DNA of 64,000 nucleotides from Curtobacterium sp. VKM Ac-2922 (GTDB lineage Bacteria; Actinomycetota; Actinomycetes; Actinomycetales; Microbacteriaceae): positions 62,001-126,000 of the forward strand of contig NZ_JALGRO010000001.1 in NCBI RefSeq assembly GCF_022815645.1. The letters are read 5' to 3'. The notes under the pieces were generated by a model. The model was given only the letters and a program-made list of their open reading frames with translations, was not told the DNA's origin and searched no databases. Shown here one piece after another: positions 5,455 to 41,175 of the stretch. Made by a program: the position numbers and the translations under genes. The number at the start of each line of letters is the position of its first letter. Within the stretch, counting starts at the first letter, position 1.

Positions 5455-6687
5455 CTAGTCGAGCAGCTCGCGCACCACCGCGTCGGCGAGCAGCCGGCCC
5501 CGCAGGGTGAGTTCGAGCCGGCCGGGGGCACCCGGCCGGCCGAGCGCGCTGCGGCCGTCCACGAGTCCCCGTGCGATGAGGCCCGCGACCCGGCCACGCG
5601 CCTGCGGGCGGAGGTCGTCGGTCGTCAGCTCACCGCGGACCCGCGCGGCGAGGAGCACGCGCTCGACGTAGCGTGTCTCGTCGTCGATGCTCTCGCGTCC
5701 CGCCGCCGGTGACGCGTCGGCGAGCACCCGGGCGGCGTACGCGGCCGGGTGCTTGACGTTCCACCAGCGGGTGCCCGCCACGCTGGAGTGGGCGCCGGGG
5801 CCGATGCCCCACCAGTCGTGGCCCTTCCAGTAGGACAGGTTGTGCCGGCTGGCGTGCGCGTCGCCGCGCGCCCAGTTGGAGACCTCGTACCAGCCGTAGC
5901 CGGCGTCACCCAGGACCTGGTCGGCCAACTCGTACATGTCGGCGGCCAGGTCGTCGTCCGGTGCCGGCAGGTCACCGCGCGCGACGGCACGCCCCATCGC
6001 GGTGCCGTCCTCGACGATGAGCGAGTACGCCGACACGTGATCAGGGGCGCAGGCGATCGCCGCGTCGAGCGAGGTGCGCCAGTCGTCCAGGGACTCCCCC
6101 GGCGTCGAGTAGATCAGGTCGAGCGAGACGTCGAGCCCCAGCTGCTTCGCGAGGTCGACGACGATCGGCACGCGCTCCGGGTCGTGGGTGCGGTCGAGGG
6201 TGGCGAGCACGTGCGGCACCGCCGACTGCATGCCGAAGCTCATCCGGTTGAACCCGCCGGCACGCAGGGTCTCGAGTGCTGACGCGTCGACCGAGTCGGG
6301 GTTCGCCTCGGTCGTGACCTCTGCCCCCGGCAGGATCCCCCACGTGTCGTCGATCGCCCGGAGGATCATCGCCAGGTCGCTCGCCGGCAGCATCGTCGGG
6401 GTGCCGCCCCCAAAGAAGACGGTCGACACCGGCCGCCGGGGCACACCGGATCGGTCGAGCACCGACGCCGCCCACGCGATCTCGCGCACGGCGTGCCCGG
6501 CGTAGTCGTCACGGCGCACCCCGCGCAGCTCGGAGGCCGTGTAGGTGTTGAAGTCGCAGTACCCGCAGCGCACCCGGCAGAAGGGCACGTGCACGTAGAC
6601 GCCGAACGGCACGTCCCCCGCTTCGGGCCGCGGCACCAGGAGTCCGTCCGCGGGTGCCGGATCAGCGATCGGGAGAGCACTCGGCAT
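5455..6687 (-). CDS. hemW: Radical SAM heme chaperone HemW-like protein
   Basis: 410 residues from ATG 6687; a second ATG lies nine bases upstream. The radical SAM cluster motif is CRVRCGYCDF (C-x3-C-x2-C), preceded by GVYVHVPF as in HemW. Later family segments are TVFFGGGTPT, SFGMQSA and YSLIVEDGTAMGR. HemW binds heme and a 4Fe-4S cluster and serves as a heme-trafficking chaperone; it is often misannotated as HemN because of homology to coproporphyrinogen III dehydrogenase. The next gene is divergent, with starts about 30 bases apart. Confidence 0.93.
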   Translation of the reverse strand: MPSALPIADPAPADGLLVPRPEAGDVPFGVYVHVPFCRVRCGYCDFNTYTASELRGVRRDDYAGHAVREIAWAASVLDRSGVPRRPVSTVFFGGGTPTMLPASDLAMILRAIDDTWGILPGAEVTTEANPDSVDASALETLRAGGFNRMSFGMQSAVPHVLATLDRTHDPERVPIVVDLAKQLGLDVSLDLIYSTPGESLDDWRTSLDAAIACAPDHVSAYSLIVEDGTAMGRAVARGDLPAPDDDLAADMYELADQVLGDAGYGWYEVSNWARGDAHASRHNLSYWKGHDWWGIGPGAHSSVAGTRWWNVKHPAAYAARVLADASPAAGRESIDDETRYVERVLLAARVRGELTTDDLRPQARGRVAGLIARGLVDGRSALGRPGAPGRLELTLRGRLLADAVVRELLD

Positions 6688-9985: not shown

Positions 9986-10029
9986 CGGACGGGAGGCGCG
10001 GTGCGGCCTGGCACCGCGCCTCCCGTCCG
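9986..10029 (-). terminator. Long hairpin terminator, GGAGGC-CGGTGC family
   Basis: Perfect 19-base stem with a 6-base loop; the left arm contains GGGAGGCGCGGTGC. It lies between the end of the secreted-protein array (stop at 10122) and lepA. It has no strong T run, typical for this genome's terminators. It belongs to a family of related hairpins at 36437, 45716, 50997 and 61321. Confidence 0.7.
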
Positions 10030-10121
10030 TCCGGCCCGTCGCCCTCCTGCACCGCTCACGGTCGCGCGTCCGCGCGCCGGGTTCGGACGGCGCGCCGGTG
10101 CCGGCGGCGTGCCGCAGCGGA

Positions 10122-34471: not shown

Positions 34472-36343
34472 ATGGCCCAGCGAATCGAAGACCACGCGAT
34501 CATCGGCGACTGCTACTCGGCAGCGCTCGTCGACCGCGCCGGCACCATCGACTGGGCGTGCCTGCCCCGCTTCGACAGCCCCTCGACGTTCGCGGCGCTG
34601 CTCGGCGACGAGCACGACGGACACTGGACCCTCCGACCGACCGACCCGGACGCCACCGCCCACCGGCACTACGCGAAGGACTCGCTGGTGCTGCGCACGG
34701 TGTGGACGACCGCCACCGGAGTCGTCGAGGTCACCGAGTTCATGCCGATCGGGGCGCACCGGGCCAGCATCGTGCGCCGGGTCCGTGGGCTGCGCGGCTC
34801 CGTCGACCTGCGCCAGGTCCTGCGCATCCGGTTCGACTACGCGCGGGCGCTGCCGTGGGTCCGCCAGATCGGCGACGACGACGGGCCGGCCCTGCTGGCG
34901 ACCGCAGGACCGGACTCGGTCCTGGTCCGTGGCTGCCGCTTCCACGCCGACGACCACCGGCACGTCGCCGACGCGACCGTGCACGACGGCGACGTCCTGG
35001 ACACGGTGCTCACCTGGTACCCCTCGCACCGCGAACCCCCCGAGCCGCTCGACGTCGACCAGGCGCTCGCCCGGACGACCGACTGGTGGCACACGTGGGC
35101 CGGCAAGACCCAGGTCGACGGCCCCTACGCCGACGCCACCCGGCAGTCGCTGCTGTTCCTCCGGGCGATGACCCACGCCGAGACCGGTGGCGTGGTGGCC
35201 GCCGTGACCACGAGCCTGCCCGAGGACCCGGGCGGCGAGCGGAACTGGGACTACCGGTACGTGTGGCTCCGGGACGCCTCGCTCGCCCTGGCCTCGCTCA
35301 TCGCCCACGGCTACCAGGACGAGGCCAAGCACTGGCGAGGCTGGCTGCTCCGCGCGATCGCCGGCGACCCGGCCGACGTGCAGATCATGTACGGGATCGC
35401 CGGCGAGCGGGAGCTGCCCGAGCGCGAGCTCGACGAACTGTCCGGGTACGCCGGTTCCCGGCCGGTGCGCATCGGCAACGGCGCCTTCACGCAGTACCAG
35501 GGCGACGTGTTCGGCGAGGTCCTGGCGGCGCTGCACGACGCCCGCGAACTCGGGCTCGAGGAGAACGCGGACTCGTGGGCGCTGCAGCGGGCCCTGCTCG
35601 GGTACGTCGAGCAACACTGGAAGGAACCCGACAACGGCATCTGGGAGATGCGCGGACCCCGCCGGAGCTTCACACACTCGCGCGCGATGATCTGGGCCGC
35701 CTTCGACCGCGGCGTCGCTGCGGTCGAGGAGTTCGGGCTCGAGGGACCGGTCGCCCGCTGGCGGCAGCTCCGCGACGCCGTCCGTGCCGAGATCGACGAG
35801 CACGGGTGGAACGCTGACCGCGGGGCCTTCCGGCAGCACTACGACACCGACGAGGTCGACGCCAGCCTGCTCGTGCTCCCCCAGATCGGCTTCTGCAAAC
35901 CGGACGACCCGCGGATGCTCGGCACGGTCGCCGCGATCGAGCAGGACCTGCGCGTCGGCGACGACGGGCTCGTGCTGCGCTACCGCACCTCGTCCGGCTT
36001 CGACGGCCTGAGCGGCAGTGAGCACCCGTTCCTGGCGTGCTCGTTCTGGCTCGTCGAGCAGTACGCGGCGTCGGGACGGGTCGACGACGCCGAACGTCTG
36101 ATGGACGTCCTGGTCGGCTACGCCAACGACGTCGGCATGCTGTCCGAGGAGATCGACGTCGCCACCGGCCACCACATCGGCAACACCCCGCAGGCACTGT
36201 CGCACCTGACGCTGGTGTCGGCGTCCGACGCGATCAACCGTGCACGCGGCACGGCGGCCGGCCACCGCACGCGCGTGTCCCAGCACGACGGCTCGACCCG
36301 GTCCGCAACCGGCGAGGGCGAGCGCGCCGGCACCCCGGCCTGA
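34472..36343 (+). CDS. Glycoside hydrolase family 15 protein (glucoamylase/trehalase-like)
   Basis: 623 residues. N-terminal beta-sandwich begins QRIEDHAIIGDCYSAALVDRAGTIDWACLPRFDSPS, the usual actinobacterial GH15 start. The (alpha/alpha)6 catalytic part has ERNWDYRYVWLRDAS and GIWEMRG with the acid Glu. No signal peptide, so cytoplasmic. In actinobacteria this group includes trehalases and glucoamylases; the substrate is not decided here. It is followed by a strong hairpin. Confidence 0.93.
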   Translation: MAQRIEDHAIIGDCYSAALVDRAGTIDWACLPRFDSPSTFAALLGDEHDGHWTLRPTDPDATAHRHYAKDSLVLRTVWTTATGVVEVTEFMPIGAHRASIVRRVRGLRGSVDLRQVLRIRFDYARALPWVRQIGDDDGPALLATAGPDSVLVRGCRFHADDHRHVADATVHDGDVLDTVLTWYPSHREPPEPLDVDQALARTTDWWHTWAGKTQVDGPYADATRQSLLFLRAMTHAETGGVVAAVTTSLPEDPGGERNWDYRYVWLRDASLALASLIAHGYQDEAKHWRGWLLRAIAGDPADVQIMYGIAGERELPERELDELSGYAGSRPVRIGNGAFTQYQGDVFGEVLAALHDARELGLEENADSWALQRALLGYVEQHWKEPDNGIWEMRGPRRSFTHSRAMIWAAFDRGVAAVEEFGLEGPVARWRQLRDAVRAEIDEHGWNADRGAFRQHYDTDEVDASLLVLPQIGFCKPDDPRMLGTVAAIEQDLRVGDDGLVLRYRTSSGFDGLSGSEHPFLACSFWLVEQYAASGRVDDAERLMDVLVGYANDVGMLSEEIDVATGHHIGNTPQALSHLTLVSASDAINRARGTAAGHRTRVSQHDGSTRSATGEGERAGTPA

Positions 36344-36364
36344 GGCCGGACCGCGCACGACGGG

Positions 36365-36413
36365 TCGAACTGCGCGTTGGTGGTCGGATCTTCTGGCAAC
36401 CAACGCACGTTCA
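36365..36413. repeat. Composite intergenic repeat, copy 1 (imperfect inverted repeat)
   Basis: The sequence from TCGAAC-x-GCGCGTTGGTGGTC to ACCAACGC..GTTC closely matches 50898-50947 downstream of trmD. In both places it is followed within about 100 bases by a GGAGGCCCG hairpin. This copy is the more degenerate palindrome. Confidence 0.7.
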
Positions 36414-36436
36414 GTCTGACCGGGTGAGCGGAGACA

Positions 36437-36476
36437 GACGGGAGGCCCGGTGCCAGCTGGCACCGGGCCTCCCGTC
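36437..36476 (+). terminator. Hairpin terminator after GH15 gene
   Basis: Perfect 18-base stem whose left arm is GACGGGAGGCCCGGTGCC, with loop AGCT. It separates the GH15 gene from the RiPP operon. Same hairpin family as 9986, 45716, 50997 and 61321. Confidence 0.8.
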
Positions 36477-36522
36477 TTCCTTGCAACGACCTCGACAACA
36501 TGCAATATGCAAAACTGTGATG

Positions 36523-36552
36523 TTGCGGATCATGTGTTTCCCCTTGTACGTT
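36523..36552 (+). promoter_or_regulatory. Candidate promoter of the RiPP operon
   Basis: TTGCGG-N18-TACGTT in the most AT-rich stretch of the area (36481-36560), about 29 bases upstream of the precursor start. TTGCAA at 36481 with CAATAT 16 bases on is a weaker alternative. Confidence 0.4.
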
Positions 36553-36580
36553 AGCCACGACGCATCGAGGGGGGTGACAC

Positions 36581-36667
36581 ATGAACGAACAGAACGCGAC
36601 GTCGGAGGACGTCTTCGAGATCGAGGAGATCGCGGGCGGGGCTGACCGGCAGGTCCACCGCTGCTGA
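36581..36667 (+). CDS. Candidate RiPP precursor peptide, 28 residues
   Basis: MNEQNATSED-VFEIEEIAGG-ADRQVHRC. A very strong Shine-Dalgarno (GAGGGGGG) lies six bases before the ATG. The first 20 residues are acidic with an amphipathic FEIEEIAGG, like a RiPP leader. A Gly-Gly divides them from a basic eight-residue core ending in Cys. It is followed by a perfect hairpin and then an E1-like enzyme with a possible N-terminal leader-binding domain. Size and context resemble pantocin and microcin C precursors, but the C-terminal residue is Cys, not Asn. Too short for most gene callers. Function as a precursor is inference. Confidence 0.65.
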   Translation: MNEQNATSEDVFEIEEIAGGADRQVHRC

Positions 36668-36679
36668 CCGAATTCTTTT

Positions 36680-36704
36680 GGGGAGGGCGCACCGCGCCCT
36701 CCCC
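36680..36704 (+). terminator. Hairpin between precursor and modifying genes (attenuator-like)
   Basis: Perfect 11-base stem GGGGAGGGCGC with a 3-base loop, 12 bases after the precursor stop. No T run follows. Such hairpins between RiPP precursor and enzyme genes often lower downstream expression or stabilise the precursor mRNA. Confidence 0.75.
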
Positions 36705-36723
36705 ATCTGCTCGTGAGGTGACC

Positions 36724-37596
36724 ATGATGATGTACAGGCTGCGTCCGGGGTGGTTCCGGCGCCACGAGGGCGACCACTGCGTGGTCTTCTTCGACGAGGA
36801 TCGGGAGATCACGGTGACGGGCGCTGTCGTCGACGCGGTCGATTCGCCCAGACCCGGGCTCTTCACCGCGAGGACCAACGGACAAGCGAGGTTCCTGGCA
36901 GAGCTCCGCCGAAGAGGCGCGCTCGTACCGCACGACCCCTGCGACGCGACGACCGACGCGTCCGCCGCACCGCAAGCGGAGTACTTCGCCGCATTCTGTG
37001 ACGATCCGCAAGCCGCGCAACAGGCCCTCGAACGGTCCCGGTTCATCGTCCTCGGTCTGGGCGGCACGGGTGCGGAGTTCCTCCGACTTGTCGCGGCGGC
37101 CGGCGTCCGTCGGTTCGTTCTGGTCGATGCCGACGTCGTCGAGGAGTCGAACAGCAACCGCCAGACCATCTACCAGAGGTCTGACATCGGACTGCCCAAA
37201 GCCGAGGCTGCCGCGCGGTACCTCGAGGCCCGGTACGCCACCGTCGAGACGATCTCGCTGCACACGAGGGTCCGCGGGGACCAGGCCCTTCGTGACATGC
37301 TCGTCGCACACGCTCCAGATCTCGTCTTCATCGCCGTCGATGAACCGATCGACACGATCGTGTCCGAACTCGCCGCTGAACTCCGGGCGCTGCAGGTGCC
37401 GTTCCTGGTCGCCGGCGTCGGCATCCGGCACGGCCACGTCCACGCAGTGTCAGATGCGCCGGCCGCCGATACGACGCTGCTGCCGACACGGGCGTCCATC
37501 GCCACGACGAACACGATGGTTGCTGCCTGTGCGGCGCACGCCGCCATCGAGCACGTCACTTCGCTCCACCTTCCGTTCGACCTGAAACGGCCTTGA
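36724..37596 (+). CDS. E1-like (ThiF/MccB-type) adenylating enzyme of a RiPP operon
   Basis: 290 residues from the first of three tandem ATGs; a GTG at 36718 is possible, and GTGAGG precedes the ATGs. Residues 1-70 (RLRPGWFRRHEGDHCVVFFD...LRRRGALV) look like a small winged-helix leader-binding (RRE/PqqD-like) or MccB-type peptide clamp. The E1 domain follows: GLGGTG 111-116, LVDADVVEESNSNRQTIY 133-150, DIGLPKA 154-160. No CxxC zinc pair is seen. The family adenylates a carboxylate, in MccB the peptide C-terminus. The likely substrate is the 28-residue peptide just upstream. The exact chemistry is unknown. Confidence 0.8.
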   Translation: MMMYRLRPGWFRRHEGDHCVVFFDEDREITVTGAVVDAVDSPRPGLFTARTNGQARFLAELRRRGALVPHDPCDATTDASAAPQAEYFAAFCDDPQAAQQALERSRFIVLGLGGTGAEFLRLVAAAGVRRFVLVDADVVEESNSNRQTIYQRSDIGLPKAEAAARYLEARYATVETISLHTRVRGDQALRDMLVAHAPDLVFIAVDEPIDTIVSELAAELRALQVPFLVAGVGIRHGHVHAVSDAPAADTTLLPTRASIATTNTMVAACAAHAAIEHVTSLHLPFDLKRP

Positions 37597-37597
37597 C

Positions 37598-38737
37598 GTG
37601 CTTCGGATCGTCCTGGATCGGCGTCCGGATGGAATCGGAGTGCATGCCACCGACTGGGCCGGCATGCAGCTGTCGAGGCTCTGGGCGACACCGCTGGTCG
37701 AACGCGAGGCTTCGTCGGGCCGTCACCGACCGATCGGAGTCACGAGCGTCGAGCGGGTCGCAGACCGCTGCTGGTCGCTCGGAGTCGACGGTGACCGGCT
37801 GCGTTCCGCGAGTGGGCTGCTCGAGGACTGGCGGATGTCGTCTTCGGTCCGCGGGTCCGACGCGTTCGCGTTCATCGAGCGCGTCTGGGTGGAATCTCCA
37901 CGGTTCCTGCGCTTCACCACGCGGTCGTCGCACGATGACGTCCGCCCCTTCCTCGACTGCTACTCCCTGTGGGGAGGTCTCCGCGAGGCCGATCGAGCGG
38001 CAGTACAACGACGGCGACATCGATTCGCTGACATCTACGAGTGGCGTGACGCGGAGGTCGCGGTCGTGACGGACGCCGACGCACGGTCGTCTGGCGACGA
38101 CGGCTGGACAATCGCGGCGGGACTGCCAGCATCGAGTCGCTGGAGCACACACCTGACGGAGACCGAGTTGACCTTCGCGACGGTACCGGCCTCGCCCATG
38201 CACCTCGCGCCCGTGGACCCGGCGGCGGTCCTCGCATCCTTCGGACCACCGGATCCTCGTCGCGGATTCATCCCGTTGGCCAAGCCGGTTCTTCCGATGC
38301 CGCTCCGTCCTGCTCAACCGACGCTCGAGCACACCGAGTTCTTCCCCAACCGTGATGTGGCAGATGCGCTCCGCCGCGCCGTGCATCGACGCCCCGGGCA
38401 GACCCCGCTGCGGCTCGAGGAACGGCGATTCCGCGAGCGGCGGGCCCACACGTTCCGCTCGGGGGTCGCGCTCGTGATCCTCATCCCGCTCAACTCCGCG
38501 CCCAGCGGGTTGCTCCGGGCGCTCGGGCCCCCTGCCGAGACGTCGGACATCGCGGCGTTCCGCCGGCTCTGCGACGCAATCGATCTGCGTCCGCAGTCCC
38601 GGCACGACGACGTTGCACGCGTTTGCGGTGTCGGCTCCGTCGCTCGGTACGTCGCCGGGAGTTCGAGCCCGCCGGAACTCGTCCGTTCGATCTCGTCCCG
38701 GGGCTTCTTGGCCCTCGAGAACCTGGAGGAACCATGA
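37598..38737 (+). CDS. Unrecognised protein of the RiPP operon, 379 residues
   Basis: Starts at a GTG one base after the E1-like stop and ends in an ATGA overlap with the MFS gene, so it is firmly in the operon. No family was recognised. It is Arg-rich and soluble-looking, with one hydrophobic patch (GVALVILIPLNSAP near 300), no Walker, radical SAM, YcaO, PEARL or nitroreductase motif that I can see, and only two Cys (DCYSLW near 120 and ARVCGVG near 345). Position suggests a second modification step, a partner of the E1 enzyme or a protease, but this is only guilt by association. Confidence 0.75.
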   Translation: MLRIVLDRRPDGIGVHATDWAGMQLSRLWATPLVEREASSGRHRPIGVTSVERVADRCWSLGVDGDRLRSASGLLEDWRMSSSVRGSDAFAFIERVWVESPRFLRFTTRSSHDDVRPFLDCYSLWGGLREADRAAVQRRRHRFADIYEWRDAEVAVVTDADARSSGDDGWTIAAGLPASSRWSTHLTETELTFATVPASPMHLAPVDPAAVLASFGPPDPRRGFIPLAKPVLPMPLRPAQPTLEHTEFFPNRDVADALRRAVHRRPGQTPLRLEERRFRERRAHTFRSGVALVILIPLNSAPSGLLRALGPPAETSDIAAFRRLCDAIDLRPQSRHDDVARVCGVGSVARYVAGSSSPPELVRSISSRGFLALENLEEP

Positions 38738-39996
38738 ACCATCGCGCCATCGGGGTCGGTGGGCTCGCAGGGTGCGAGAGTGCGAGCGCCGTCGGCCTGC
38801 AGATCACCTACTTCGCCGTCCCACTCATCGCCATCGAGCGGTTCAACGCAGACGCAGTGTCCATCGGTGCGCTGAACCTCATGGACTCGATCGCTGCGCT
38901 CCTCTTCGGACTCGTCGCCGGAAACCTCATCGACCGAGCGGGTGGCGTGTTCGCAGTCGGCGCCGCCAACGTGCTCCGAGCGAGCGCGCTGTGCCTCCTC
39001 GGCGTCGCACTCGTGAACAGCCCGCAGATGTGGATGTTGTACGTGACGATGCTGCTCGTCGGGATCGCCTCGCTCACCCACGAGGCTGGGCTCTCCACGG
39101 CTGTGCAACAGCTCGGCGTGCGCTCGAGTCGTTCGCTGAACCGGGTCAACGCCCTGCTCCGCGGGAGCTCGGTTGTGGCGGAGCTCGCCGGACCCGGGCT
39201 CGCCGGGGTGGTCGTCGTGCTGGTGGGTTTCGGCGCTGCGCTCATCATCGGCGGAATCGCGTTCGCCGTCGCGGCGGCGGTCTGTGTCGCTTTCTGGTTC
39301 GTGATCGACCGACCCTCCGTGAACCAAGAACACGACTCAGCATCGGGGCCGGAGGGTGAGCGAGGGTCACGCTTCGCCGACGGGCTCCGGTTCATCTTCG
39401 CCGACCGAGTCCTCCGTGACCTCACCCTGTCATCGACACAGTTCAACCTGTTCAGCGCAGCCTTCCAGGCGGTCTTCCTGATCTACTGCGTCCGCGTCCT
39501 CGACCTGGGAACGCCGGGAGTGGCGGTCCTGGGCGTCGCCGCTGGCATCGGTGGGCTTCTCGGGTCGTTCATGGCGGCTTCGGGTGCAGTGGCACGCCGA
39601 CAGAAGACCTGGTACCTCTGCGCTCTGGGTGTCCCGGCCGTCTGCGTTCTCGCGATCGTCGGTGCGAGCAGCTTGTCCCACGGGGTCTCCTTGGTCGTCG
39701 TCGCTGTTGCGGAGGCGGTGTTCTCGTCGTGCATGGTCCTGTGCATCGTGCTCTTCAACACACTCCGGCAGATGCGCAGCCCTGAAGCCCTGGCCGGACG
39801 AATCGCGGCGTCCGAGCGTGTGCTGGCACTCGCGGGGGAGGTTCCCGGCGCGCTGCTCGGCGGATTCCTCGGGGTGGTCGTCGGCGTGCACGCGCCGATG
39901 GTCATCGCGGCCGTGGGGATGTCAGCATCCCTGTTCTGGGTCCTGCGTGTGCCGGACTGGTCCGAGCGCCGACCGCTCGAACCAGTCGGAGGCTGA
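38734..39996 (+). CDS. MFS transporter of the RiPP operon (putative peptide exporter)
   Basis: 420 residues with about 12 hydrophobic segments. N-terminal half has LMDSIAALLFGLVAGNLIDRAG (MFS loop A) and the second half has IYCVRVLDLGTPGVAVLGVAAG. It fits the MFS-exporter (enterobactin exporter/MacA-like) group that also includes microcin C exporter MccC. GGAGGA precedes the ATG, which overlaps the previous stop. It probably exports the operon's product and may give self-immunity. Confidence 0.85.
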   Translation: MNHRAIGVGGLAGCESASAVGLQITYFAVPLIAIERFNADAVSIGALNLMDSIAALLFGLVAGNLIDRAGGVFAVGAANVLRASALCLLGVALVNSPQMWMLYVTMLLVGIASLTHEAGLSTAVQQLGVRSSRSLNRVNALLRGSSVVAELAGPGLAGVVVVLVGFGAALIIGGIAFAVAAAVCVAFWFVIDRPSVNQEHDSASGPEGERGSRFADGLRFIFADRVLRDLTLSSTQFNLFSAAFQAVFLIYCVRVLDLGTPGVAVLGVAAGIGGLLGSFMAASGAVARRQKTWYLCALGVPAVCVLAIVGASSLSHGVSLVVVAVAEAVFSSCMVLCIVLFNTLRQMRSPEALAGRIAASERVLALAGEVPGALLGGFLGVVVGVHAPMVIAAVGMSASLFWVLRVPDWSERRPLEPVGG

Positions 39997-40044
39997 GGAT
40001 CTCGACGACGACGGCCCGGAGGAGCAACGTCCGGTGTCCGCCTG

Positions 40045-41175
40045 CTACAGGGAGTCGGCGAACTCCCGCACCAGGTGGCGGACGACCTCGCGCAGGTCGC
40101 CGTCGTGCTGCTGCGCGACCACGAGCTGCCGCTGGTACGACGCCCCCCGCTCGATCATCGTGTCCAGGTGGTGCAGCTCGTCGACGCACCCGAGCCGCTC
40201 GGCGATCGGGTCGAGCCGGGTCACCAGGTCGTGCACCTCGTCGGTGACCAGTCGTTCGTCGCCGGCCACGTTGGTGATGATCTCGGCGTCCATGCCGTAG
40301 CGGGCCGCACGCCACTTGTTCTCGCGGACGAACCACGGCTGCATGGTCGGCAGGGTCTCGCCCGCGTCGAGCCGGTCGGAGCACGCCGTCACCAGACACT
40401 GCACGAGCGCGGTGACCGCCCCGACCTCGTGCAGGGTGGACAGGCCGTCGGAGACCCGGTTCTCCAGCGTGCCCCACCCCGGTGACGGTCGGATGTCCCA
40501 CCGCAGGTCCTTGACGCCCTCGATCACACCGGTGTGGGTCAGGTCACCCACGACCTCTTCGAAGTTCGCCCACGCACCGAGCTGCGGGGGCAGACCGCCG
40601 GTGGGGAGCTGCTGGAACATGAGCGCCCGGTTCGACGCGTACCCGGTGTCGGTGCCGCCCCAGAACGGACTCGACGCGGTGAACGCCTGCAGGTGCGGCA
40701 CGTAGGCGAGCATCGCGTTCATGATCGGGATGGCCTTGTCGCGGTCGTCGATCCCGACGTGCACGTGGACACCCCAGATGAGCATCTGCCGTCCCCACCA
40801 GCGCGTGCGGTCGATCAGCGTCGTGTAGTGCTCGCTGTCCGGGGTGATCTCCTGCTGGTCCCACACCGCGAACGGATGGGTGCCGGAGCACATCACCTGG
40901 GCGTCGAGGGGTGCGGCGGCGTCGATCACCTCGCCGATCGTGCTCGACAGCTCCGCGGTGGCTCCCGCGACGGTGTCGTGCACCCCGGTGACGACCTCGA
41001 CCGTGTTGGTGAGCAGTTCTTCGGTCACCTTCTCGCGGTCGCCCAGGCGTTCGTGCACGGCGGCGATGACCGCGGGGGCCCGGGGCGCCAGGTCCCCGGT
41101 GTCCCGGTCGACCAGCGGGAGTTCCCACTCGACGCCGATGGTCGACGGGCGGGACTCGGTGAAGCGGATGTCCAT
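40045..41175 (-). CDS. YbdK-type carboxylate-amine ligase (glutamate-cysteine ligase homologue)
   Basis: 376 residues from ATG 41175; an ATG three codons upstream (41184) with AAGGAG nine bases before it is an alternative. Family signatures are STIGVEWELPLVD, CSGTHPFAVW, RMLIWGVHVHVG-type sequence (here RQMLIWGVHVHVGIDD) and PSPGWGTLENRV. YbdK enzymes have weak glutamate-cysteine ligase activity. In actinobacteria that lack glutathione the physiological product is unclear. It is divergent from the cyclohexane cluster. Confidence 0.92.
   Translation of the reverse strand: MDIRFTESRPSTIGVEWELPLVDRDTGDLAPRAPAVIAAVHERLGDREKVTEELLTNTVEVVTGVHDTVAGATAELSSTIGEVIDAAAPLDAQVMCSGTHPFAVWDQQEITPDSEHYTTLIDRTRWWGRQMLIWGVHVHVGIDDRDKAIPIMNAMLAYVPHLQAFTASSPFWGGTDTGYASNRALMFQQLPTGGLPPQLGAWANFEEVVGDLTHTGVIEGVKDLRWDIRPSPGWGTLENRVSDGLSTLHEVGAVTALVQCLVTACSDRLDAGETLPTMQPWFVRENKWRAARYGMDAEIITNVAGDERLVTDEVHDLVTRLDPIAERLGCVDELHHLDTMIERGASYQRQLVVAQQHDGDLREVVRHLVREFADSL

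Follow-up and report, generated by a model that had tools for sequence, protein, structure and literature searches.

What would be made by an operon of ~3.5 kb in which a 28-codon open reading frame (ORF) stands ahead of an E1-like enzyme, a protein of no recognised family and a transporter? The question is raised by a 64,000-nucleotide stretch of Curtobacterium sp. VKM Ac-2922 (contig NZ_JALGRO010000001.1, positions 62,001 to 126,000 of the forward strand; the whole stretch is called the window here), whose + strand carries in compact succession the 28-residue ORF, a hairpin, an E1/ThiF gene, a gene for a 379-residue protein and a major facilitator superfamily (MFS) transporter gene (Table 1). 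A preliminary description of the window, made from its letters alone, had proposed an operon for a ribosomally synthesized and post-translationally modified peptide (RiPP). All the genes it described were found, and their order recurs in a second genome of the genus, Ferrero. The tight coupling that it reported for the last three genes was also seen: a single base separates the E1 stop codon from the start of the 379-residue gene, and the ATG of the MFS gene (PF07690, E = 2.7e-23) overlaps the stop codon of that gene (ATGA). The reading we favour, with somewhat better than even confidence in its parts taken jointly, is that the operon makes and exports a small RiPP, the E1 enzyme activating the precursor C-terminus and the 379-residue protein, a putative relative of solute-binding proteins (SBPs), holding the peptide.

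We asked whether the 28-residue ORF, which is preceded by the excellent Shine-Dalgarno-like sequence already pointed out (GAGGGGGG), is a gene. The Ferrero locus begins with a 27-residue ORF, MEQKHVTEDVFEIEEIDNVTHRVVNRT, and the two peptides align without gaps across window residues 3-27 with a local score of 60, reached by none of 20,000 shuffles (best shuffle 48). The acidic leader ascribed to the window peptide is thus kept in a second Curtobacterium: the stretch EDVFEIEEI is identical in both, and two of its nine codons differ, both silently. Three more loci, from genomes G646, G533 and G1517, which belong to a different genus within the order, extend the comparison. The 45-residue precursors of G646 and G533 differ in 12 of their last 35 codons, and 10 of these differences are silent, the sign of a translated, constrained gene; none of 2,000 shuffles aligned as well, and the peptide of G1517 is identical to that of G533. 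The preliminary description had named homologous loci without the small ORF or its leader as evidence against a RiPP; in all five loci that have the 379-residue homologue beside the E1 gene, a small ORF lies 5' of the latter and is conserved inside each of the two groups. We conclude from the leader conservation beyond shuffles and the silent codon changes that the precursor gene is real.

Between the Curtobacterium and the distant-genus precursors no alignment was obtained (15,586 of 20,000 shuffles were equally good), and agreement is limited to the last two residues, Arg-Cys in the window, G646, G533 and G1517 and Arg-Thr in Ferrero. An eight-residue core set off by Gly-Gly, as first proposed, was not conserved. 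Gly-Gly is confined to the window peptide among the five and the window's AGG is DNV in Ferrero, so this motif does not fix the border between leader and core; it is the C-terminus that is conserved instead. The terminal Cys is the sole Cys, Ser, Thr, Lys or Tyr beyond residue 8 of the window peptide; the Ferrero peptide adds Thr20 to its terminal Thr27, and several Ser/Thr occur in the distant precursors. Cys or Thr at every C-terminus, together with the solitary Cys of the window peptide, favours a reaction of the terminal side chain or backbone. A different use of this Cys is known from the GRC thiolactone peptides (GrcA/GrcB), which share with the window operon a ThiF-like enzyme and a C-terminal Cys and in which GrcB links Glu35 to C-terminal Cys39 (PMC12250964). 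By analogy, the E1 enzyme would activate an Asp or Glu side chain for attack by the C-terminal Cys, and both the window peptide (D22-C28) and the distant precursors (E39-C45) do have an acid six residues ahead of that Cys. We consider a side-chain thiolactone unlikely. The Ferrero precursor has His at the acid position and Thr at its end, the precursors of the two groups do not align, and no radical S-adenosylmethionine gene was seen among the ORFs of the operon, whose three large genes are those for the ThiF-like enzyme, the SBP-like partner, itself foreign to GRC, and the MFS protein.

The E1 protein (292 residues; GTG start, with in-frame ATGs from 36724) proved to be the ThiF/MccB-type adenylating enzyme it had been taken for. 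It matched PF00899 with E = 2.6e-29; a profile search placed MccB first (8.3e-24), followed by PaaA (1.2e-20) and then MoeB (1.2e-19), and a Foldseek search with its structure model returned MccB at ranks 1-24 and PaaA at rank 25. A VIA-align comparison, whose rows merely re-order the Foldseek matches and barely cover the N-terminal region discussed below, included AclA (9egb), a further small E1-fold enzyme with bound substrate. The window and Ferrero enzymes are 43% identical, and all 12 checked ATP-site positions are identical in the five E1s. The PF00899 match, and the matches to ThiF and MoeB models, would also suit the activation of a ThiS/MoaD-type sulfur carrier, which the preliminary description had itself listed against its proposal, beside a small ORF arisen by chance. 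We rejected this explanation as hardly credible: the enzyme scored 74.1 bits against TIGR02356, the ThiF equivalog (cut-off 275.25), and 56.4 bits against moeB (cut-off 376.55), no carrier gene was seen among the operon ORFs, and the precursors have no terminal Gly-Gly and do have a conserved leader.

Support for the possible leader-binding part at the E1 N-terminus, suggested earlier, was weaker. The N-termini of the five E1s matched 14 PqqD domains with a score of 25.8, against at most 10.9 in 40 shuffles (P = 1.5e-4, probability 52%), the Curtobacterium pair alone gave P = 0.012, and the structure model is poor in this region. These profile matches suggest that the E1 N-terminus likely holds a leader-binding RiPP recognition element (RRE).

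The perfect hairpin reported after the small gene has a 12-bp stem, a loop of 3 nucleotides and no strong T run. The window spacer folded with a minimum free energy of -28.2, while 300 shuffles that kept its composition averaged -17.2 (z = -3.7). The spacers of the four relatives gave z-scores of -4.2 to -5.4 (300 such shuffles each), so that in all five loci a strong hairpin separates the precursor gene from the E1 gene. A scan of 36300-36900 with Rfam gave no match at gathering scores. In Escherichia coli a terminator occupies the equivalent position of the microcin C operon (PMC6495379); the hairpin here is likely an attenuator or transcript end and may be used in the same way. Microcin C (MccA/MccB) resembles the window operon in further respects, namely an E1 enzyme, here with a likely RRE, behind a tiny precursor gene and MccB as the top match by profile and fold. 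Does the enzyme, then, leave AMP on the peptide C-terminus and so yield a peptidyl nucleotide, a Trojan-horse toxin? The hairpin and the MccB ranking would be in keeping with this, which we nevertheless hold to be very unlikely, since the P-N bond made by MccB uses the C-terminal Asn (PMC12150305) and all five precursors end in Cys or Thr. The microcin C precursor is typically of 7 residues with that Asn at its end, whereas the window has 28 residues with an acidic leader and an Arg-Cys end, and an SBP-like partner besides.

The 379-residue protein had been called unrecognised, which was right as far as direct matches go (no Pfam family at E <= 1, no NCBIfam family at E <= 5); a remote kinship nevertheless emerged through the distant copies. 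The copy of Ferrero is 35% identical to that of the window. Against PF00496 (SBP_bac_5) the G646 copy gave E = 1.9e-4 and 21.1 bits, below the cut-off of 32.4, and the G533 copy E = 0.014 and 14.9 bits, while the window and Ferrero copies (E <= 1) and the G1517 copy (E <= 0.01) had no match. A profile of the three distant copies matched ten SBP_bac_5 proteins encoded elsewhere in the genome that holds the window (P = 4.3e-8, 263 columns), and the Curtobacterium pair profile matched the three distant copies (P = 6.3e-7, 116 columns); controls with E1 and MFS profiles, a reversed SBP profile and five column shuffles gave P values of at least 0.36. Compared directly, the Curtobacterium pair did not match the SBPs significantly (P = 0.14), combined profiles gave 0.03-0.04, and the profile of all five SBP-like proteins gave P = 0.03. 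An AlphaFold model built from two sequences was unusable (mean predicted local distance difference test score 33.5), and a profile search of the PDB with the five proteins returned no match up to E = 10, a result compatible with an SBP fold. By two steps, and backed by the position of its gene, the 379-residue protein thus appears to be remotely kin to the SBP_bac_5 (OppA/DppA-type) peptide-binding proteins.

It differs from those proteins in size and in the signals for export. The five SBP-like proteins have 347-387 residues against 534-672 for the ten SBPs of the window's genome. None of the five has a signal peptide, a hydrophobic N-terminal stretch (maximum 0.9) or a lipobox; for the true SBPs this value exceeds 1.6 in seven of ten and a lipobox is present in six of ten. 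The operon has no ATP-binding cassette (ABC) permease gene. The 379-residue protein is therefore predicted to stay in the cytoplasm. The start of the G646 protein (L009 ~6468-6600) appears to lie in another reading frame than those of G533 and G1517, through a real frame change, another start or a sequencing error. The new element of the system would be this predicted cytoplasmic relative of peptide-binding proteins directly behind a RiPP enzyme gene. In the literature searched on ThiF RiPP clusters, which left most subscription papers outside, an SBP-like partner is not mentioned, and the term 'solute-binding' does not occur in four papers checked for it; a single match for SBP terms (PMC11161930) concerns staphyloferrin and was set aside.

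The main rival for the role of the SBP-like protein is immunity by product binding, the protein sequestering the finished peptide in the producer cytoplasm and having no part in biosynthesis. Kinship to peptide-binding proteins would suit this role, and the window's operon offers, the MFS exporter aside, no other immunity candidate. In each of the five loci, however, the gene comes straight after the E1 gene and before any oxidase gene, and in the distant loci immunity could instead be served by an ATPase of ~420 residues that has a P-loop of the ABC type and matches GNAT proteins weakly (G646 and G533 copies scanned). On this evidence we regard immunity as improbable, if a serious competitor.

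In the biosynthetic reading preferred here, the E1 enzyme would bind the 28-residue precursor through its acidic leader and convert the C-terminal carboxylate of the peptide to an AMP ester; known RRE-ThiF enzymes adenylate a carboxylate of their peptide (PMC12150305). Judged by its position and family, the SBP-like protein would be a dedicated cytoplasmic partner, holding either the precursor or the activated intermediate. Capture of the activated end might then take place inside the molecule, with the terminal Cys/Thr itself or the backbone next to it as the simplest acceptor; a two-electron enzyme, a 2-oxoglutarate (2OG)-Fe(II) oxygenase or a SagB-type dehydrogenase, would finish the product in four of the five loci, the window's operon having neither, and the MFS protein would export the finished peptide. 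Since all parts lie within ~3.5 kb, the reaction and the part played by the SBP-like protein are both open to direct testing.

Described ThiF-like RiPP enzymes (microcin C, pantocin A, GRC, enterofaecin, indolylamide) differ in how the activated carboxylate is captured (PMC12250964, PMC12150305). Pantocin A (PaaP/PaaA/PaaB/PaaC) has a precursor of ~30 residues, a ThiF-like enzyme and an exporter, as does the window operon, and the Ferrero relative adds a 2OG-Fe(II) oxygenase like PaaB. The window peptide, in contrast, has no Glu-Glu-Asn and its operon no oxygenase, but an SBP-like partner and an MFS exporter; pantocin had also been credited with an MFS exporter, which PMC12250964 describes as an EamA protein instead. 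The view that the product is a peptide related to, yet different from, microcin C and pantocin gains support from the C-terminal Cys/Thr in place of Asn and the missing Glu-Glu-Asn, and we infer the same. Azole-forming systems (thiazole/oxazole-modified microcins and linear azol(in)e-containing peptides) also come near: in three relatives the E1 is accompanied by a SagB-type dehydrogenase, and the precursors end in Cys/Thr. Here, however, the E1 retains its ATP site and the SBP-like gene stands in the place of YcaO. No YcaO gene was recognised in the operons of the five loci, and no window operon protein had a Pfam or NCBIfam match to YcaO (a search confined to the operon).

A bolder version of the favoured reading, speculative and itself rather unlikely, is that a binding protein for peptide uptake moved into the cytoplasm to become the dedicated partner of a RiPP E1, in YcaO's place. 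The E1 would activate the terminal Cys/Thr, and a small terminal ring (beta-thiolactone/beta-lactone or thiazoline/oxazoline) would close through the residue's own thiol or hydroxyl or the backbone; the SagB enzyme or 2OG oxygenase, swapped between lineages, could oxidise this ring. If true, a ribosomally made peptide would thereby gain a C-terminal heterocyclic warhead by a route that does without YcaO. What sets the system apart is the partner of putative SBP ancestry, the Arg-Cys/Arg-Thr C-terminal signature and the predicted finishing oxidases that vary between lineages.

The distribution of the system looks rare and patchy. The 379-residue gene is present in two of 66 genomes of the genus, the window's own and Ferrero (G035), where the order is the 27-residue ORF, E1, the 379-residue homologue, the extra 2OG-Fe(II) oxygenase (PF13640, E = 1.6e-7) and an MFS gene (PF07690, E = 6.5e-16). 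With a two-row profile G646 was found among 396 sampled genomes of the order, and further searches found G533 among 295 genomes of G646's family and G1517 among 150 genomes of its genus; G533 apparently belongs to the 396-genome sample as well, yet was unreported there. Each of the three has a precursor, an E1, the 379-residue homologue and a SagB-type dehydrogenase (TIGR03605, 83.5 bits in G646 and 102.3 bits in G533, cut-off 78.4; PF00881 in G1517). An MFS gene is present in each as well, matched to PF07690 in G646 and G1517 and recognised by reading only in G533. Samples of the family (398 genomes), class (394) and phylum (168) gave no further convincing locus, plasmids gave no match in tblastn with the G646 copy, and of 112 stretches fitting the pattern in a scan of genome contigs one was a relative locus. 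These counts are lower bounds, the genomes being sampled and most searches scoring few candidates per genome. Weak matches were discarded before counting in G393 and G330 of the family sample (stops inside), in G900 and G922 of the 295-genome search (pieces of 615- and 2089-residue frames) and in G1321 of the class sample (neighbourhood without such an operon among ORFs of at least 200 residues).

Table 1. Features of the RiPP-like operon in the window, and of one additional gene in the distant clusters
Feature	Position	Strand	Basis
Shine-Dalgarno-like GAGGGGGG ahead of the precursor gene	36567..36574	+	sequence
Precursor peptide gene, 28 residues, acidic leader, Arg-Cys end	36581..36667	+	leader conservation; precursor ORF 5' of E1 in 5/5 loci
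Hairpin in the precursor/E1 spacer, likely attenuator or transcript end	36679..36705	+	folding z-score, window and 4 relatives
E1/ThiF-like adenylating enzyme, likely N-terminal RRE	36718..37596	+	PF00899, MccB matches, ATP-site residues
379-residue protein, apparently SBP_bac_5-derived, predicted cytoplasmic partner	37598..38737	+	two-step profile links; PF00496 in G646 copy
MFS transporter, likely exporter	38737..39996	+	PF07690; MFS gene in all 4 relatives
~420-residue ATPase of distant clusters, possible immunity gene	L009:3030-4307, L014:2233-3486, L018:6238-7491	not given	P-loop, weak GNAT-like match

In the window the operon is flanked on the left by a glycoside hydrolase 15 gene and on the right by a GCS2-type ligase gene on the opposite strand. 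The GCS2 gene is present in 65 of the 66 genomes of the genus, and in none of the 29 GCS2 loci compared besides the window's own does the operon lie within 1.5 kb. The homology of these 29 loci to the window starts at window 40028-40070, the GCS2 end, and in 21 of them the GCS2 neighbour matches the Ferrero stretch that bears ffh (SRP54, PF00448, E = 2.8e-70); six of the remaining eight are short, and two are full-length without a match to that stretch. The Ferrero operon sits between GCS2 and ffh, the window operon at the same GCS2 end with a different left flank. The location at the GCS2 end in both genomes, the absence from the 29 loci and the lower G+C of the operon (0.677 against 0.71 in the surroundings) fit an accessory cassette acquired at one chromosomal junction. 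The 3' end of GCS2 (window 40045) resembles a gene-gain site, with the ffh side within 1.5 kb in 21 of the 29 loci; the GCS2-to-ffh interval spans ~6.4 kb in Ferrero (L005:8890-15330), and the window has in its place the operon plus another flank. A search of the whole window for tRNA and tmRNA genes gave none. A near-identical palindromic, terminator-like element occurs at window 9986-10035 and 36428-36477 and also beside Ferrero ffh (91-95% identity).

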